Positions 944-34,113 of a stretch of DNA of 35,537 nt are shown here, piece after piece. Source of the stretch: Candidatus Zhuqueibacterota bacterium. Its GTDB lineage: Bacteria; Zhuqueibacterota; QNDG01; JABMRT01. The notes under the pieces were generated by a model. That model had not been told where the DNA came from. It did no database searches and saw nothing but the letters and a program-made list of their open reading frames with translations. The stretch is taken from assembly GCA_013202295.1 (NCBI GenBank), contig JABMRT010000303.1, positions 1 through 35,537 of the forward strand. Reading direction: 5' to 3'. The translations under genes were made by a program, and so were the position numbers. The first letter of the stretch is position 1. Every line of letters starts with the position of its first letter.

Positions 944-1063
944 ATGGACTATAATAAAAGGAAATGGTTATGTACAAAAAAAGGGTCATTCATATTCATG
1001 AATGACCCTTTGGTAATTTTATTGTTTTCGATTTATTGCATCTTGGTCATCTTCTTGATTTGA
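944..1063 (+). CDS. Possible 39-residue single-pass membrane microprotein
   Basis: An ATG at 944 is preceded by AAGGAG (933-938) at an ideal 5-base spacing and opens a 39-codon frame ending in TGA at 1061-1063. The predicted peptide has a basic start (KRK, then KK at residues 12-13) followed from about residue 22 by an uninterrupted hydrophobic stretch long enough for one membrane helix. This is the usual inside-positive order. It is divergent from trpR. It contains the terminator palindrome of the facing gene and overlaps that gene's 3' end antisense by 31 bases. The hydrophobicity could partly be an accident of reading a lysine-rich coding end backwards. I do not recognise a family. Confidence 0.28.
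   Translation: MDYNKRKWLCTKKGSFIFMNDPLVILLFSIYCILVIFLI
976..1011 (-). terminator. Rho-independent terminator of the sorting-domain protein gene
   Basis: A 14-bp perfect stem (980-993 with 998-1011, loop ATTC) is followed on the minus strand by a T-run (complement of 976-982). It lies about 20 bases after the stop codon at 1033. Confidence 0.88.
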
Positions 1064-2199
1064 ACATGGTCACCAGCGATTAATTTGTAAAAGTAGATGC
1101 CGGATGCAAGATTTCTACCCGTTGCATCTTGACCATTCCACTGGACCGTATAAACACCTTCAGGTTGAATACCATCAGAAAGTGTATATACTTCTTCACC
1201 AAGTAGATTATAGATTTTCAGAGAAACTGCTGTTTGCTCAGAGAGGTAATATCGTATCTGAGTTTCCGGATTAAACGGATTTGGATAATTCTGTGACAGT
1301 CCGAATGTAGATGGCGTTTTATCCGTACTCACACCGATCGGACCGAAATATGCTTTGCTGTCTTCACCCGCTTCAAGGGTAAGTTCATGAATCATATAAA
1401 AATATGATTTACCCCATTCTGCTGAATGATCCACAAATTTATAATCTTGATAATCTGATGAATTACCCTGTCCTGGGATCATTGCTGTAGTCACTTTTGA
1501 AAATTCACCGTTCGCGCGATCTGCTCTCAGAATATTGAATCCAAGACAGTTCGTTTCACTGGCAGTCGTCCAGTTGAGTTCAACACCCATTTCAGGAGCA
1601 TACGCTGCAGTGAATGCGCTCATCTGCACTGGCAATGATAAATCTTTCATATCATCACGTGTTTCAGCGCGGAAGCCGGTGACATCGGCATCATCATACT
1701 GGACAACTTTGTATGGGAATGCTCCTGGAATTGTATCCGGCATCCAGAAAACAGAATCATTTGCTGCAGGCGCTGAATTATAAAGTATTTTTACTCTAGC
1801 AATTTTTTTCCAACTCGTACCAACCGAAACACGACTACCAGGTGGCACATCAAAAATATCCATATATTTAAATTTGATCATGGCATTAGCACTATCATAG
1901 ATTTCAATTGGATAGTACAAATGATGAGCATAGGTTTCACTGTTCGGGAAGAGGACATCTGTAAACAGGACCGTATCTACAATAGCATTAAGCGCTAATC
2001 CCAATCCAATGGTATTGTGATATTCCTGAATCGTCACATTCCCTGTAAAACAAATGGCTTCGACATCAACAATAACAGTATCCGTTGTGCCCGTTTGAAT
2101 ATTTTCAACCAGTGTCAGCTGTGAATGCACCTGGGTCTGGCCGAACACAAACCCGGCAGCCATCATACTGATCATCAACCCTAATAACAAACGTTTCAT
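1033..2199 (-). CDS. Secreted protein with C-terminal T9SS-type (Por/FlgD-like) sorting domain
   Basis: The 388-residue protein begins with a clear Sec signal peptide (MKRLLLGLMISMMAAGFVFG, cleavage after about residue 20). Residues about 25-190 look like a beta-rich domain I cannot assign. Residues about 200-290 contain a fibronectin-III-like stretch (VELNWTTASETNCLGF and ILRADRANGEF) seen in many surface proteins of this group. The last 90 residues start with FGLSQNYPNPFNPET and continue through IYNLLGEEV and NLASGIYFYKL, the classic FCB-group C-terminal sorting or anchoring domain. It is therefore expected at the cell surface or outside the cell. It has its own promoter, a GGGAGGG ribosome-binding site (2207-2213) and a terminator, so it is a single-gene unit. 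Its substrate or partner is unknown. Confidence 0.9.
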   Translation of the reverse strand: MKRLLLGLMISMMAAGFVFGQTQVHSQLTLVENIQTGTTDTVIVDVEAICFTGNVTIQEYHNTIGLGLALNAIVDTVLFTDVLFPNSETYAHHLYYPIEIYDSANAMIKFKYMDIFDVPPGSRVSVGTSWKKIARVKILYNSAPAANDSVFWMPDTIPGAFPYKVVQYDDADVTGFRAETRDDMKDLSLPVQMSAFTAAYAPEMGVELNWTTASETNCLGFNILRADRANGEFSKVTTAMIPGQGNSSDYQDYKFVDHSAEWGKSYFYMIHELTLEAGEDSKAYFGPIGVSTDKTPSTFGLSQNYPNPFNPETQIRYYLSEQTAVSLKIYNLLGEEVYTLSDGIQPEGVYTVQWNGQDATGRNLASGIYFYKLIAGDHVQIKKMTKMQ

Positions 2200-26969: not shown

Positions 26970-26987
26970 TCTCTGTTGGAAGGTATA

Positions 26988-28028
26988 TTGAAACCGAACT
27001 GGAAAAGGCTGCGAGACGGTCAGCTGGATTGGGAAATTTTCCAACTCCGAAGTCAAGTGCTCTCTGCAATTCGCCAATTTTTCCACGATCGCAATTATCT
27101 CGAAATCGAAAGTCCGCTGCTCACTCCCTATCCCACGTTGGATGCCAACATCCAATCTGTTTCGGTATCGGTAGAAGATCATCTCGGATCATCGTACTCA
27201 TGCTTTCTCCACACCAGTCCCGAACATGCTATGAAAAAGCTGGTCGCTGCTGGAGCGAAAAAGATCTATTATCTTGGAAAGGTCTTTCGCAATCAGGAAA
27301 TCTCCCTACTTCACAATCCCGAGTTCTCGATGCTGGAATGGTACCAAACTGACGCGGATTACCACACCATCCAGGATGAAACAGAAGCGCTGGTAGGTTA
27401 TATCGCACAATCCGTCCTGGATACGTTTCAATTGAATCAGAATGTACGAATATTGGATCTTACACCTTCGTGGGATCGCATCCCCCTGCGTCAGCTCTTT
27501 CTTGAGAGGACCGGTACGGATCTGGCCGATTGTTTGACTCTTCCATCAATTCAAAAAGTGGCTTCAGATAATGATATCCAAATTTGTGAAGAAGATGACT
27601 TGGAATCCGTTTTCTTCAAGATTTATCTGGATAAAATGGAGACGAATCTGGGATTCCCCAAACCCGTATTCATTGAGGACTATCCTCTTTGCATGGGCAT
27701 GATGGCCAAACCCAAAGATTCTGATCCGGGTTGGGTGGAACGTACTGAACTTTACGTCGGCGGAATTGAGCTTGCCAATGGATACAGCGAACTGACAGAT
27801 CCGGATGAGCAGCGTAGACGTTTTCTTCACGATCTTACTGTAAAGAATAAACCTGAACATCTTCTAGACGGAGAGCTTATTGAGGCGCTCCGATCCGGTC
27901 TGCCCCCCACTGCGGGCATTGCCTTGGGTGTAGATCGATTGATTATGCTACTTGCCAATAAGTCGGATATCCGGGATGTGCTTTTATTCCCTTTTCATCA
28001 AATAATCGAAAAAACGAGAAATCATTAA
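26988..28028 (+). CDS. epmA: EpmA/GenX-type lysyl-tRNA synthetase paralogue (EF-P lysine ligase family)
   Basis: A class II synthetase catalytic core of about 346 residues without the anticodon-binding domain of LysRS, as in EpmA (GenX, PoxA). Motif 1 region YLEIESPLLTPYPTLDANI, motif 2 GKVFRNQEISLLHNPEFSML and motif 3 GIALGVDRLIMLL are all kept. In E. coli EpmA attaches (R)-beta-lysine to elongation factor P. The start is TTG 26988 with GGAAGG 4 bases upstream; TTG 26976 is possible. Neither efp nor epmB is nearby, so its target may be EF-P elsewhere or another protein. It is co-directional with the M20 gene and tldDE. Confidence 0.92.
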   Translation: MKPNWKRLRDGQLDWEIFQLRSQVLSAIRQFFHDRNYLEIESPLLTPYPTLDANIQSVSVSVEDHLGSSYSCFLHTSPEHAMKKLVAAGAKKIYYLGKVFRNQEISLLHNPEFSMLEWYQTDADYHTIQDETEALVGYIAQSVLDTFQLNQNVRILDLTPSWDRIPLRQLFLERTGTDLADCLTLPSIQKVASDNDIQICEEDDLESVFFKIYLDKMETNLGFPKPVFIEDYPLCMGMMAKPKDSDPGWVERTELYVGGIELANGYSELTDPDEQRRRFLHDLTVKNKPEHLLDGELIEALRSGLPPTAGIALGVDRLIMLLANKSDIRDVLLFPFHQIIEKTRNH

Positions 28029-28104
28029 ATCCGAAACAGGAGGTCGATTTCTTTCGTATGTTAAATGATAATTTTTTTATTGATCAACTCAAGGAGGGTA
28101 TGCT

Positions 28105-29637
28105 TTGTCATCACTCAACAGAAGGCAGTTTCTTCAGAAGAGCGGAACTGGCGTAATGGCAGCCACGGCAACTGGCGGACTGTGGAATCATCTTCTCTAT
28201 GCGGGAGGTAATGGCACTGGTTCAACCACACTTTTCGAATCGAAATTCGGTGTAGCAAGGGAATCCATGCAAAAAATCCTGCAGATCGCTTTATCTAAAG
28301 GCGGAGATTTTTCAGAGCTCTTTTTTGAATACCGGATTGCCAATCTCGTACGCATGGAAGAGGGCATTATCAAAGATTCATCGGAGCGGATCAGTCTGGG
28401 TGTAGGTATTCGCGTGCTCAATGGAGAGCAAACCGGGTATGGTTACACCAATGATCTGTCGTTCGAGAAAATGAAACAAAGTGCACTCACAGCAGCTGCG
28501 ATCGCGTCAAGCGGCAAGACGATGAAGATCGCAAATTTATCTGAAGTGACTCGAGATCATAAAATGTATGATCTGATAAATCCCGTTCATGAACTGGAAT
28601 TAACTTCAAAGATCGATGCAATTGAAAGAGCTCATGACGCGGCATTAAAATATGATTCGCGCATTCAAAAAGTTCAGGTACGTCTTTCGGATGAAATTCG
28701 GTTTGTCACCATCGTCAATAGCGAAGGCCTGCTCATTTCGGATGCTCGTCCACAAGTTCGCTTGATGGTGAATGCTACAGCTGAGGATAAAGGCGAATTG
28801 AGTACCTCCAGTTGGGCCAATGATGGCGGCCGGGTCGGCATGAATTTTTATAAGGATAAAACACATCCTGAAGAACTGGGAAAACGCGCCGCAGAAGAAG
28901 CAATACTGCTCCTCTCCGCAGTAAACGCACAAGCAGGTGAGCAACCGGTTGTACTGGGGAAAGATCAATCCGGTGTCATGATTCACGAGGCAGTTGGGCA
29001 TCCGCTTGAAGCGGACAGCAACCGTAAAAAAGAATCCATCATGTGGGATAAAATGCATCAAATGGTCGCCAATCCCATTGTAACAATTTACGATGATCCC
29101 ACCATTCCATTCATGCGCGGTACACACGCAATTGATGATGAAGGGACATTCACGCAAAAGAAGATGCTCATCGAAAAGGGCAAGCTTGTTGGATTTTTAC
29201 AGGATCGCCTTTCGGCCAGGCTCATGGGCGATGAACCCGATGGCCATGGCCGTCGTGAAAATTATCAGTGCATTCCCATCCCGCGTATGGCCAATACAGT
29301 GCTGGAGCGCGGCGATTCCAATCCGGATGATATTATCGGCTCTGTAAAAAAAGGATTCTATGCGAAGACCTATCAGGGAGGCATGGTTCAGCCATCCGGA
29401 AAGTTCACTTTCTCTGTGAACATGGGCTACTTGATTGAGGATGGAAAACTGACCCAACCTATTAAGAACGCGACACTCATCGGCACCAACGTTCAAATTC
29501 TGAACGAAGTCGAAATGATCGGCAATGATATGGGATTTTTCCTCGGCACTTGCGGTAAGGACGGACAAAGTGCACCCTGTACGGCCGGGACACCCACCTT
29601 GAAAATTCGGTCAATGACTGTAGGAGGCCAGGCATGA
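28105..29637 (+). CDS. tldD: TldD-family metalloprotease subunit with twin-arginine signal
   Basis: A 510-residue TldD. The zinc motif HEAVGH (HExxxH) is in the sequence GVMIHEAVGHPLEAD at about residues 295-300; the late cysteine region GTCGKDGQSAPC is present. Start TTG 28105 has AAGGAGGG 6 bases upstream; the nearby ATG 28100 is out of frame. Unlike E. coli TldD, the N-terminus carries a Tat-type signal (NRRQFLQKSG, then an alanine/glycine-rich region to about residue 35), suggesting export in folded form. TldD pairs with TldE to form a protease that matures microcin B17 and degrades the CcdA antitoxin in E. coli. Its stop overlaps the tldE start (ATGA). Confidence 0.93.
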   Translation: MSSLNRRQFLQKSGTGVMAATATGGLWNHLLYAGGNGTGSTTLFESKFGVARESMQKILQIALSKGGDFSELFFEYRIANLVRMEEGIIKDSSERISLGVGIRVLNGEQTGYGYTNDLSFEKMKQSALTAAAIASSGKTMKIANLSEVTRDHKMYDLINPVHELELTSKIDAIERAHDAALKYDSRIQKVQVRLSDEIRFVTIVNSEGLLISDARPQVRLMVNATAEDKGELSTSSWANDGGRVGMNFYKDKTHPEELGKRAAEEAILLLSAVNAQAGEQPVVLGKDQSGVMIHEAVGHPLEADSNRKKESIMWDKMHQMVANPIVTIYDDPTIPFMRGTHAIDDEGTFTQKKMLIEKGKLVGFLQDRLSARLMGDEPDGHGRRENYQCIPIPRMANTVLERGDSNPDDIIGSVKKGFYAKTYQGGMVQPSGKFTFSVNMGYLIEDGKLTQPIKNATLIGTNVQILNEVEMIGNDMGFFLGTCGKDGQSAPCTAGTPTLKIRSMTVGGQA

Positions 29638-30962
29638 AAAATGTGGATAAACAATTGACAGGATTGGCCGAATCCATGGTCGCCTACGGTAAAAAGCAAG
29701 GTGCGGATGAAGTCCAGATTACCATTTCAGAAGGAAGCGAACTCTCCATTGATGTGCGCATGGGAAACATCGAAAAACTGGTCGAAGCCGGATCCAAACG
29801 GCTCTCGGTTAAAGTCATTAAGGATTCAAAAGTCGCGACTGCATCATCTTCGGATCTATCCAAAGAGACGTTGAATAAATTGATGGATCATGCAATCCAA
29901 CGGGCCGAACTCGCGAGTGCGGATGAATTTTCGAGTTTACCGGAAAGTCAAAAAATCACCGCGGATCTTGAAGCACTTCAAATTTATGATGGTTCCATCA
30001 CAGAATTGGCTGTAGAAAAAAAGATTGAGTTCGCCAAAAAAACCGAATCCATCTGCCTTGCAGATGAGCGGGTGAAAAAATCCTACGGCGCTTCGTATGG
30101 ATCTTTTGAAGGCACCTTTTATCTCGCCAATTCGAATGGAGTCTCACTGGCATATCCCAGAACCAGCTGCTCCTGCTCCATTTATCTACAGTCAGGTGAC
30201 GGAGACAATCTGTTCGACGATGGCTGGGGAGACGCCACCCGTAATCTCAGCGACCTGATGACACCGGAGGACATCGCGAAAACTGCCATTCATCGTGTCA
30301 CGCGGTTGATTGGTGCAAAGAAAATCGAAACCCAGAACGTGCCTGTTATAATGGAGCCTGCGATGACTTCGAGTCTGCTGCGTTTCTTGCAGCAATGCAT
30401 CACTGGCCGAAGCATCTATTTGAAGCAATCCTTTCTGACGGACAAATTATGTCAGCAGATCGCTGGTAAAAATATTTCTATTGTGGATGACGGTCTTCTT
30501 CCACGGGGGATTGGTTCGCGGCCCTTTGACAGCGAAGGTGTCCCCTCCCAGAAAACCAGCTTAATTGAGCAGGGTGTGCTAAAGAATTATCTGTTGGATA
30601 CATACGCATCAAAAAAATTGGGGCTGCCTTCAACGGGAAATGCCGGTGGCTCAACCAATTTCTATATGGAGGCCGGAATACACTCTCAGGAAGAGATCAT
30701 TAAATCCGTGGATAAGGGTTTATACCTGGCGGACATGATCGGGCAAGGTACAGTCCCCACCACCGGTGACATCTCACGCGGCGCCTTTGGTCTGTGGATC
30801 GATAATGGAGAACTAACCTACCCAGTTGCGGAGATCACCATTTCCGGAAATTTGGGTACCATTCTCAATCAAATCGAAATGGTTGGCAATGACCTTGAGC
30901 ATAAAGACAGCATTGAGGGTCCGACTATAAAAATCGCTGAAATGACAATCGGCGGGAAATAA
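29634..30962 (+). CDS. tldE: TldE (PmbA)-family partner of TldD
   Basis: A 442-residue TldE/PmbA homologue. It shares the TldD fold (KIAEMTIGGK at the C-terminus, PFDSEGVPSQKTSLIEQGVLKNYLLDTYASKKLG, STGNAGGSTNFYME) but lacks the HExxxH motif, as expected for the non-catalytic partner. There is no signal peptide or Tat motif; the protein begins directly with a helical, charged region. It is translationally coupled to tldD through ATGA and closed by a strong terminator 12 bases after its stop. Confidence 0.93.
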   Translation: MKNVDKQLTGLAESMVAYGKKQGADEVQITISEGSELSIDVRMGNIEKLVEAGSKRLSVKVIKDSKVATASSSDLSKETLNKLMDHAIQRAELASADEFSSLPESQKITADLEALQIYDGSITELAVEKKIEFAKKTESICLADERVKKSYGASYGSFEGTFYLANSNGVSLAYPRTSCSCSIYLQSGDGDNLFDDGWGDATRNLSDLMTPEDIAKTAIHRVTRLIGAKKIETQNVPVIMEPAMTSSLLRFLQQCITGRSIYLKQSFLTDKLCQQIAGKNISIVDDGLLPRGIGSRPFDSEGVPSQKTSLIEQGVLKNYLLDTYASKKLGLPSTGNAGGSTNFYMEAGIHSQEEIIKSVDKGLYLADMIGQGTVPTTGDISRGAFGLWIDNGELTYPVAEITISGNLGTILNQIEMVGNDLEHKDSIEGPTIKIAEMTIGGK

Positions 30963-30972
30963 AATATTCAAA

Positions 30973-31005
30973 GTCCCCGGTTAAAAAATTAGCCGGGGCC
31001 TTTTT
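30973..31005 (+). terminator. Rho-independent terminator of the M20-epmA-tldDE operon
   Basis: CCCCGGTTAA (30975-30984) pairs with TTAGCCGGGG (30989-30998, one G-T pair) around a four-base loop, followed by a T-run at 31001-31005. Confidence 0.92.
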
Positions 31006-31104: not shown

Positions 31105-31145
31105 TATTATTCACATCAACACTCCTAATGAAGAGGAGGGAATCC

Positions 31146-32450
31146 ATGAGTCCGACACGCCGTGAATTTATGCAAACATCTTTGGCTGCAGCTGTTGCGG
31201 TCCCAGCAGTGCTGTCCGCATCTAGCAAGCCGAGCGAAACGCTCGTGATTGGTTTAATTGGGTGCAAGGGCATGGGGTGGGCAGATCTGAAAGATTTTTT
31301 GGATGAGCCCAATGTTCGCTGTGCCGCGCTTTGTGATATCGACGATAAATATTTAAATGAGCGGGCAGAGAACGTTCTGGAAAAACAGGGGAAAAAACCG
31401 AAACTGTACAAGGATTATCGTAAATTTTTGGAAAGAAAAGACCTGGATGCCGTGATTATCGGCACACCGGATCACTGGCACTGCCTTCCCACGATTGAAG
31501 CTTGCGAAGCGGGAAAAGATGTTTATGTTGAAAAGCCTTTGGCCAACACAATTGAAGAATGTGATGTGATGCTGCAGGCCGCGCGACGATACAATCGCGT
31601 GGTGACTGTCGGTATGCAACAGCGCAGCGGAAAACATTGGCAGGAAGCCATTCAATTCGTACGTGATGGAAATCTGGGTATAATTCGTCAAGTCAAGTTC
31701 TGGGCGAACTTCAACTACGGCGGAGGCAGTCCTGCAATTCCTGATGAGCCTGTGCCTGGAGGTGTGGACTATGAGATGTGGCTCGGTCCGGCGCCCAACC
31801 GACCCTTTAACCAAAAACGATTTCATGGCAGCTGGCGAATGTTCTGGGATTACGGTGGCGGCCTCCAGACCGACTGGGGTGTGCACTTGATTGACATGGG
31901 AATCTGGGGAATGAATATCCAGGGCCCACCAAAATCAACGCGCGCAACGGGTGGTAATTTTGCCAGTTATAGTAATGCGACTGAAATGTCGGATACACAG
32001 AACGTCCTTTATGAGTTTGATGATTTTTCCATGATTTGGGAACACAACGGTGGCATCCAATCCGGTCCCTGGGGACGGAATTATGGGGTAGCATTCCTTG
32101 GAACCAATGGCACATTGATCGCAGATCGGGACAATTGGGAAGTTATCGGTGAAGGCTGGGGAGATGATAAGCGGATGGTGGATGTACCACAGCAAAAGTC
32201 CGATCAAATGTCGCATGTGAACCATGTTCGTAATTTCATCCAATGCGTAAAGACACGGAAGAAGCCAGCCTGCGACATTGAGATTGCACGACTTGCCGCA
32301 CTTTACGCACATCTAGGCAATATAGCCTATCGAACTGGAGACGTTATAGTATGGGACGATGCAAATCGCTCGTTTGTGAATAATCCTAAAGCTGACAAAT
32401 TGGCGATGGCACATTATCGAAAACCCTGGTCATTACCCACTCTTTCATAA
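31146..32450 (+). CDS. Gfo/Idh/MocA family NAD(P)-dependent oxidoreductase, Tat-exported
   Basis: A 434-residue protein with a twin-arginine signal at its N-terminus (SPTRREFMQTS followed by AAAVAVPAVLSAS). The Rossmann domain has VIGLIGCKGMGWADL, LCDIDDKYL and GTPDHWHC. The catalytic lysine is in the family motif YVEKPLA, and the DWGVHLIDMG segment supplies the histidine and aspartate. Zymomonas glucose-fructose oxidoreductase, a relative, is exported by Tat with its cofactor already bound, so a periplasmic redox role is plausible. I chose ATG 31146 because GAGGAGGG lies 5 bases upstream and the Tat motif then sits at the terminus; ATG 31128 adds six residues. It is first in a three-gene operon. 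Confidence 0.92.
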   Translation: MSPTRREFMQTSLAAAVAVPAVLSASSKPSETLVIGLIGCKGMGWADLKDFLDEPNVRCAALCDIDDKYLNERAENVLEKQGKKPKLYKDYRKFLERKDLDAVIIGTPDHWHCLPTIEACEAGKDVYVEKPLANTIEECDVMLQAARRYNRVVTVGMQQRSGKHWQEAIQFVRDGNLGIIRQVKFWANFNYGGGSPAIPDEPVPGGVDYEMWLGPAPNRPFNQKRFHGSWRMFWDYGGGLQTDWGVHLIDMGIWGMNIQGPPKSTRATGGNFASYSNATEMSDTQNVLYEFDDFSMIWEHNGGIQSGPWGRNYGVAFLGTNGTLIADRDNWEVIGEGWGDDKRMVDVPQQKSDQMSHVNHVRNFIQCVKTRKKPACDIEIARLAALYAHLGNIAYRTGDVIVWDDANRSFVNNPKADKLAMAHYRKPWSLPTLS

Positions 32451-32473
32451 ATCACTTAAGACAGGAGCGAAAA

Positions 32474-33235
32474 ATGAATTCACGCACAATCATAGTCGTA
32501 ATACTTGGATTTTTAGTACTATCAGCAACACTTTTGCTTGCACAAGATGATGCTGAGGATAATCTACCCAAACCTGAAGAAACCGAATTCTGGGAACCGG
32601 TCCCCCCTGTCGTAACACCTGGGTTGAATACAGCGCCACCTTCTGATGCAATCGTCCTATTTAACGGAACGGATTTTTCCTCATGGGAACCGACTAAGGG
32701 TGATACAATTAAGTGGATATTGGAGGATGGTACCATGACGGTCGGGAAAAAAGCCGGTGACATTAAAACGAAACAGGGTTTCGATGATTGCCAGCTGCAT
32801 GTGGAGTTCAGAACACCAAGAAAGGTTGTAGGCAAGAGCCAAGGCCGTGGCAATAGCGGTATTTTCCTTCAAGAACATTATGAAGTACAGATCCTTGATT
32901 GTTATGACAATGCCACCTATGTCAATGGCATGATCGGTTCGATTTACAAACAGTATGTGCCTTTGGTCAATGCTTGCAGAAAGCCGGGCGAGTGGCAGAC
33001 CTATGACATCATTTTCACGGCTCCCCGGTTTGACATGGATGGGTCTGTACTGAAGCCAGCATACTTTACTGTATTTCTGAATGGAATCCTAGTCCAGTAT
33101 CATGTTGAAGTCAAGGGAAACACGGTCTGGCGCGGACAACCATTCTATAAGAAGCATGGATTTAAAGAATCCATTCGTCTTCAGGATCACAACAATCCAA
33201 CAAGCTTCCGCAATATCTGGATTCGGGAGTTATAA
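32474..33235 (+). CDS. DUF1080 (3-keto-disaccharide hydrolase domain) secreted protein
   Basis: A 253-residue protein with a Sec signal peptide (about residues 1-23, ending LLLAQ), an acidic/proline-rich linker, and a concanavalin-like DUF1080 domain from about residue 67 to the end. Family hallmarks are ALFNGTDFSSW-type IVLFNGTDFSSW, LHVEFRTP, GNSGIFLQEHYEVQILD, KPGEWQTYDIIF and the closing IRLQDHNNPTSFRNIWI. Characterised members cleave 3-keto-glycosides made by Gfo/Idh/MocA enzymes, which fits the upstream neighbour. It starts 23 bases after the oxidoreductase stop and its stop overlaps the next start by one base (TAATG). Confidence 0.92.
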   Translation: MNSRTIIVVILGFLVLSATLLLAQDDAEDNLPKPEETEFWEPVPPVVTPGLNTAPPSDAIVLFNGTDFSSWEPTKGDTIKWILEDGTMTVGKKAGDIKTKQGFDDCQLHVEFRTPRKVVGKSQGRGNSGIFLQEHYEVQILDCYDNATYVNGMIGSIYKQYVPLVNACRKPGEWQTYDIIFTAPRFDMDGSVLKPAYFTVFLNGILVQYHVEVKGNTVWRGQPFYKKHGFKESIRLQDHNNPTSFRNIWIREL

Positions 33236-34113
33236 TGAAAGAGGATGACATGATTGGAAATAAAATAGTATCCAGGCGAAAATTTATCCAGCAATCAACT
33301 ACCGGATTGGCCGGTCTTTCCATCCTCAGCAGGTGTAGTACGCCATCCAAGCGGAAGCTGGATGAGATCGGGCTACAGCTCAGTACGATCCGAAAACCAC
33401 TTGAAGATGATTGGAAGAAAGCGTTCCAACGAGTTGCCGAAATTGGATATAAAACAATCGAGGGCGGCGGCCCCAGGGGTGGCTTATCCGTGGAGGAGTT
33501 CAAAACGTTTCTTAAAGAAATCGGCCTTAATCCCCTGTCAACAGGTACATCCATGCAGGACATAGTGGAGAATCTGGATCAATCACTCGAACAGGCTATA
33601 AACATGGGACAAAAGTGGTTTATCTGCTTCTGGCCATGGACGGGTTCCAGTGAAGATAAAAAGCTGGATGATTGGAAAGAAGTGGCCGAACGGTTGAACA
33701 AGGCGGGTGAAAAAGTTAAGGCAGCAGGACTTGGATTTGCTTATCATAACCATGATATTGAGTTTGCTCTTACTGAAGAGCAAATCCCTTTCGACATACT
33801 CCTGGATGAAACGGATGCTAATTTAGTCGACATAGAGATCGATTTATACTGGATTGCAAAGGGTGGGCAGGATCCAATCCCCTATTTCAAGAAATACCCC
33901 GGTCGATTTCCCTTATGGCATATTAAAGACATGGATGATACTGAAGAACAATCCTTCGCGTGTGTAGGAAGCGGCATTCTTGATTTTTCGAACATATTTA
34001 AGCATGCAGATATCGCAGGAATGAAGCACGTCTTTGTTGAACATGACCGACCGGAAGATCCGATGGCATGCATTCAATCCAGCTATGATTATTTAAATGG
34101 ATTGCGATATTAA
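33235..34113 (+). CDS. TIM-barrel sugar isomerase/epimerase (xylose isomerase-like), Tat-exported
   Basis: A 292-residue AP-endonuclease-2-type TIM barrel. The N-terminus has a twin-arginine motif (SRRKFIQQS) and hydrophobic stretch ending SILSRC, so it may be exported and possibly lipidated, although the residue before the cysteine is not ideal. Metal-site residues appear in IEGGGPRGG, FAYHNHDIEF, VDIEIDLYWIAKGG and the C-terminal FVEHDRP. Members isomerise, epimerise or dehydrate sugars and keto-sugars. Both ATG 33235 (GGAG 5 bases upstream) and ATG 33250 (AGAGG upstream) are usable; either keeps the Tat motif. It is the last gene of the cassette, converging with the Sel1 protein. Confidence 0.9.
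   Translation: MKEDDMIGNKIVSRRKFIQQSTTGLAGLSILSRCSTPSKRKLDEIGLQLSTIRKPLEDDWKKAFQRVAEIGYKTIEGGGPRGGLSVEEFKTFLKEIGLNPLSTGTSMQDIVENLDQSLEQAINMGQKWFICFWPWTGSSEDKKLDDWKEVAERLNKAGEKVKAAGLGFAYHNHDIEFALTEEQIPFDILLDETDANLVDIEIDLYWIAKGGQDPIPYFKKYPGRFPLWHIKDMDDTEEQSFACVGSGILDFSNIFKHADIAGMKHVFVEHDRPEDPMACIQSSYDYLNGLRY

Follow-up and report, generated by a model that had tools for sequence, protein, structure and literature searches.

A TldD/TldE metalloprotease pair with a Tat signal on TldD only, likely exported as a heterodimer

TldD and TldE (PmbA) of Escherichia coli form a microcin-processing metalloprotease (MEROPS M103; PDB: 5nj5). TldE is required for activity, and the heterodimer, which is ~65 Å across, is the stable and preferred form (PMC5810440). 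These proteins are encoded in ~60% of bacterial genomes (PMC10885120), and the functional literature that we found treats them as an intracellular peptide-processing enzyme. As for export, the twin-arginine (Tat) system carries cargo of up to 150 kDa (PMC6708511), and hitchhiker export, in which a signal-bearing subunit takes a signal-less one with it, is established for HybOC and PaoABC (PMC4273604).

The window analyzed here, a stretch of 35,537 nucleotides from a Candidatus Zhuqueibacterota bacterium (contig JABMRT010000303.1), contains a tldD-tldE pair (Table 1) which, by domain content and alignment, is a member of the M103 family of heterodimeric TldD/TldE metalloproteases. Each protein contains PmbA_TldD domains 1–3, all over the curated Pfam cut-offs. 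The NCBIfam models PRK10735 (TldD; E = 9e-116, 387 bits) and PRK11040 (PmbA; E = 2e-85, 287 bits) match TldD and TldE, respectively, below their equivalog cut-offs of 513 and 438 bits: the pair belongs to the same family, and is not called the identical protein. With phmmer, TldD matches 5nj5_A (E = 6e-103) in an alignment that begins only at residue 53 of the window protein; TldE matches 5nj5_B (E = 2e-69), and here the E. coli PmbA chain covers nearly all of the sequence. AF2 models of the two subunits reproduce the corresponding E. coli chains with TM-scores (by target) of 0.93 for TldD and 0.94 for TldE. The residues H294, E295, H299 and C483 are invariant across 39 aligned TldDs, and on this alignment the window protein is a complete HExxxH/Cys TldD. 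There is no HExxxH motif in the window TldE; among 212 TldE-type frames, one has it.

The two genes are tightly packed: the ATG of tldE overlaps the tldD stop codon (ATGA). There is no in-frame start codon further upstream in the tldE open frame, so the start is unique and there is no room for an N-terminal signal on TldE. A terminator-like hairpin 3' of tldE may close the two-gene unit, bearing in mind that the region's eight such hairpins, against 5.4 expected, do not greatly exceed shuffled sequence, although this one has a stem of 10 pairs. Just 5' of tldD (26976–28028) is an EpmA/GenX-type EF-P lysine ligase gene (TIGR00462 above cut-off). Downstream (31128–34113) there is a run that looks, from its predicted products, like an exported 3-keto-glycoside pathway: it encodes a Gfo/Idh-type oxidoreductase with a Tat signal (SPTRREFMQTSL; the Tat models score below their own cut-offs), a protein in which a 3-keto-disaccharide hydrolase domain is combined with a Sec-like start, and a xylose-isomerase-like TIM barrel protein whose Tat-like start ends in a lipobox-like Cys (SRRKFIQQSTTGLAGLSILSRC). 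Elsewhere in the window (1033–2199) is a gene for a protein with a C-terminal Por_Secre_tail/type IX sorting domain. The flanking genes differ among close relatives (L038–L042): the neighborhood is not conserved and offers no clue to the substrate.

Table 1. Features of the tldD-tldE locus (window coordinates)
Feature	Position	Strand	Details and basis
Shine-Dalgarno AAGGAGG for the tldD TTG	28091..28097	+	7 nt before the start; direct sequence reading
tldD	28105..29637	+	510 aa, TTG start at 28105; open reading frame coordinates
Predicted Tat signal peptide, TldD residues 1–33, MSSLNRRQFLQKSGTGVMAATATGGLWNHLLYA	28105..28203	+	TIGR01409
Twin arginine codons R6-R7	28120..28125	+	sequence; kept in all three copies in the genome
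TldD Pfam domains PF01523/PF19290/PF19289			first begins only at residue 71
HEAVGH metal-binding/catalytic motif (H294, E295, H299)	28984..29001	+	aligned to E. coli HEAVGH
C483, counterpart of Cys454, the third metal ligand in E. coli	29551..29553	+	alignment; ligand role from PMC5810440
tldE/pmbA, non-catalytic partner without signal	29634..30962	+	442 aa, ATG start at 29634
Intrinsic-terminator-like hairpin with T-rich tail, 3' of tldE	30975..30998	+	consensus match only; 10-pair stem

The additional N-terminus of TldD, of ~45 residues, is a Tat signal (SLNRRQFLQKSG) that includes a hydrophobic stretch. Its motif, N-R-R-Q-F-L-Q-K, is of the (S/T)RRxFLK-like type, and the Tat-signal model TIGR01409 gives it 18.2 bits, above the cut-off of 16.7. 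In the AF2 model, pLDDT falls below 50 over residues 14–38, which is expected of an added signal. The signal is probably cleaved after ~A33, where a possible signal peptidase site follows LYA, and the genome encodes TatC (G000:C73, E = 4.9e-68). The first-pass annotation had noticed NRRQFLQKSG and a Tat-like hydrophobic region on TldD, and no signal on TldE; the above-cut-off match to TIGR01409 and the single possible start of TldE bear out both observations.

The arrangement recurs within the same genome, which contains three tldD-tldE pairs: all three TldDs carry a Tat signal (the N-termini of the other two are SISRRDFLGTSAALGTAAAL and SINRRDFIKRSSQTMIAAAA), and none of the three TldEs does. 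For a wider survey we collected 190 distinct TldDs, from searches of relatives, the phylum, GTDB contigs and the surroundings of genomes of three other groups, and scored as Tat-TldD any with a start codon, an RRx motif and a hydrophobic stretch. By this test 87 of the 190 carry a signal (86 by script; L009, from the same family, was added as the 87th), a count which is not a frequency, since the loci were gathered by similarity to Tat-bearing queries. The trait is widespread, a point that the first-pass annotation had not seen. Shuffled N-termini pass the test at a rate of 2%, and unrelated neighboring frames at 9%, the latter including real Tat proteins as well as spurious frames; the test is lenient for a single protein, but the conservation of the TldD signal is not due to chance. 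Explaining the Tat label on a tree of mature TldD domains takes 11 changes of state (8 of them forced by well-supported branches), as compared to 59 for shuffled labels, and the Tat-TldDs fall in several separate clades. The window TldD and five others form an all-Tat set (starred on the tree). Absence of the motif from close relatives was to have counted against the original proposal: all six of the closest tree rows have RR-x-F with a hydrophobic stretch. TIGR01409 has hits in 18 of the 39 TldDs aligned and in no TldE out of 40.

An independent sign of export comes from a Cys that in 24 of 86 Tat-TldDs lies 12–37 residues past the first Arg; in all 24 it is at position 23–28, the place expected for the lipobox of a Tat lipoprotein. 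The contexts are mostly lipobox-like (SLLSC, SSLSSC, WWQAC, LSNC, LLSGC). These 24 proteins are kin rather than 24 independent events, and are spread over several clades; TldD is probably lipid-anchored through this residue in several other lineages.

TatC was detected in 79 of the 82 genomes of the phylum, which renders its presence uninformative as a cross-genome correlate of Tat-TldD. Of the three genomes in which TatC was undetected, two carry a Tat-TldD (G065, 85% complete; G067, 56% complete), a point against export. Tat-TldD is sparse around G083 in the Bacteroidota, where only 2 of 118 genomes surveyed reach the cut-off. Two of the signal-less exceptions, L146 (G068:C177) and L199 (G238), have a recognizable Tat signal in which a stop or frameshift, either within the RR motif or immediately after it, breaks the frame: a decaying signal or an assembly error. 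Three genomes hold both Tat-bearing and signal-less TldD genes, each with its own TldE: G010 (L010/L031/L150), G088 (L162/L172/L234) and G089 (L048/L173). These are natural systems in which to compare exported with internal pairs. Four signal-less TldDE loci (L044, L046, L047, L050) lie close to a gene with a Tat-like start (e.g., LNRREFIKGSMIGLACLPN), and an LPG_synthase_TM protein adjoins tldD in L044 and L048.

We turn to the signal-less partner. An overlooked TldE signal, hidden by a wrongly placed start, is ruled out: besides the unique start in the window, none of the TldE partners in 80 complete Tat pairs has an N-terminal extension of >20 residues. The few RR matches found in TldE by regular expression (L183, L210 and L207 among the Tat partners; L215 earlier) are internal helix residues or lie in frame upstream of the real start. 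It is nevertheless conceivable that TldD alone is exported and acts outside as a homodimer, leaving TldE in the cytoplasm in another role, a reading consistent with the lack of a TldE signal and with the reported activity of a Sulfolobus TldD homodimer (discussed in PMC5810440), which also counts against export of the heterodimer. We consider lone export of TldD unlikely on several grounds. First, TldE adjoins tldD in nearly all complete loci and diverges in step with its own TldD (r = 0.91 between TldD and TldE distances overall, 0.92 when only Tat pairs are counted; permutations reached at most 0.10), which is the behavior of a dedicated partner. Second, the E/D divergence ratio is 1.67 for Tat pairs and 1.57 for non-Tat pairs: TldE in Tat pairs is under the same degree of constraint as its signal-less-pair counterparts, and is no decaying leftover. 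Third, a signal-less TldD is absent from 29 of the 31 phylum genomes that have a Tat-TldD (a tally across incomplete genomes), so a TldE retained in the cytoplasm would there have no catalytic partner. Differences in amino-acid content between the TldEs of Tat pairs and those of non-Tat pairs (e.g., fewer Cys, 2.2 vs 2.7) were set aside as confounded by lineage and base composition.

The N-terminus of TldD could instead be Tat-like yet unused, with the pair cytoplasmic like its E. coli counterpart and translation perhaps frequently starting at an in-frame ATG at codon 18 (28156). That ATG, the TTG start, and a window signal of low hydrophobicity (1.0, as compared to a median of 1.66) all favor this reading and are points against export. 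We nevertheless judge it very improbable: the TTG has a strong Shine-Dalgarno, TIGR01409 is above its cut-off, RR-x-F and the hydrophobic stretch are kept in the closest relatives and elsewhere, and 24 relatives carry the lipobox-like Cys at a fixed distance. We give very little credence to dual location, in which alternative starts or inefficient export would leave part of the pair inside: the codon-18 ATG could be the source of a signal-less form, and the retention of both kinds of TldD gene by G010, G088 and G089 implies an enzyme usable in both compartments, but no clear Shine-Dalgarno precedes 28156 (read by eye).

Weighing these readings, we favor as quite likely that the window pair is an exported heterodimeric metalloprotease: it would pair in the cytoplasm and leave through the Tat system by virtue of the TldD signal, with TldE carried along. 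Of the cytoplasmic assembly and joint export that the first-pass annotation had proposed, predicted Tat export of TldD is well supported, by conservation across lineages, by the lipobox-bearing variants and by the TatC gene in the genome; for TldE, hitchhiker co-export accounts best for the data, and so far stands as an inference. It is favored by a dedicated, co-diverging and signal-less TldE in every pair, a subunit that in E. coli is needed and yet non-catalytic. We envisage that the two-gene unit yields TldD and TldE, which would fold and pair in the cytoplasm, where TldD would presumably also take up its metal; the Tat signal of TldD would then carry the folded heterodimer over the inner membrane, TldE traveling as a hitchhiker as do the signal-less subunits of HybOC and PaoABC. 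Outside the cytoplasm, if it acts like its E. coli counterpart, the hollow heterodimer may trim unfolded peptides or protein N-termini. One further feature counts against export: the Cys metal ligand is retained in TldD, and might be prone to oxidation outside the cytoplasm. On the broader scale, we lean towards the view that a whole TldD/TldE branch, in several phyla, is exported by Tat hitchhiking as a pre-assembled hollow heterodimer, with a lipoprotein anchor in some lineages, which would place a compartmentalized, processive peptidase at the cell surface or within the periplasm.

While the family itself has been described before, its predicted exported form is, as far as we found, new. 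No mention of TldD or TldE export turned up in our searches of the open-access literature, although one may exist in a subscription journal, and the TldD signal may already be marked by automatic annotation. The exported branch, if confirmed, would be a self-compartmentalized protease outside the cytoplasm and would extend the known hitchhiker cargo of the Tat system to a protease; moreover, direct comparison of exported with internal pairs, sometimes within one genome, offers a way to ask what purpose TldD/E serves.

How, then, does this pair compare with the systems described? With E. coli TldD/TldE (5nj5) it shares both subunits, the three-domain fold, the HExxxH and remote Cys confined to TldD, and a non-catalytic TldE. 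It differs in that its TldD has the added N-terminal Tat signal and its TldE is N-terminally shorter; furthermore, the window genes lie side by side and overlap, both proteins score under their NCBIfam equivalog cut-offs, and the predicted location of the pair is outside the cytoplasm. Acidobacteriota, Aminicenantes and part of the phylum to which the window belongs have signal-less TldD/TldE pairs of the same family (43–61% identity, with tldE nearby); unlike the window protein, the TldD of these pairs starts directly at the mature domain, without a Tat signal. Finally, the pair resembles the hitchhiker Tat substrates of E. coli, HybOC (hydrogenase 2) and PaoABC, in being a metal-containing complex with a Tat signal on one subunit (PMC4273604). 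In contrast to these redox enzymes, it is a protease, its signal is on the catalytic subunit, and its co-export is predicted.
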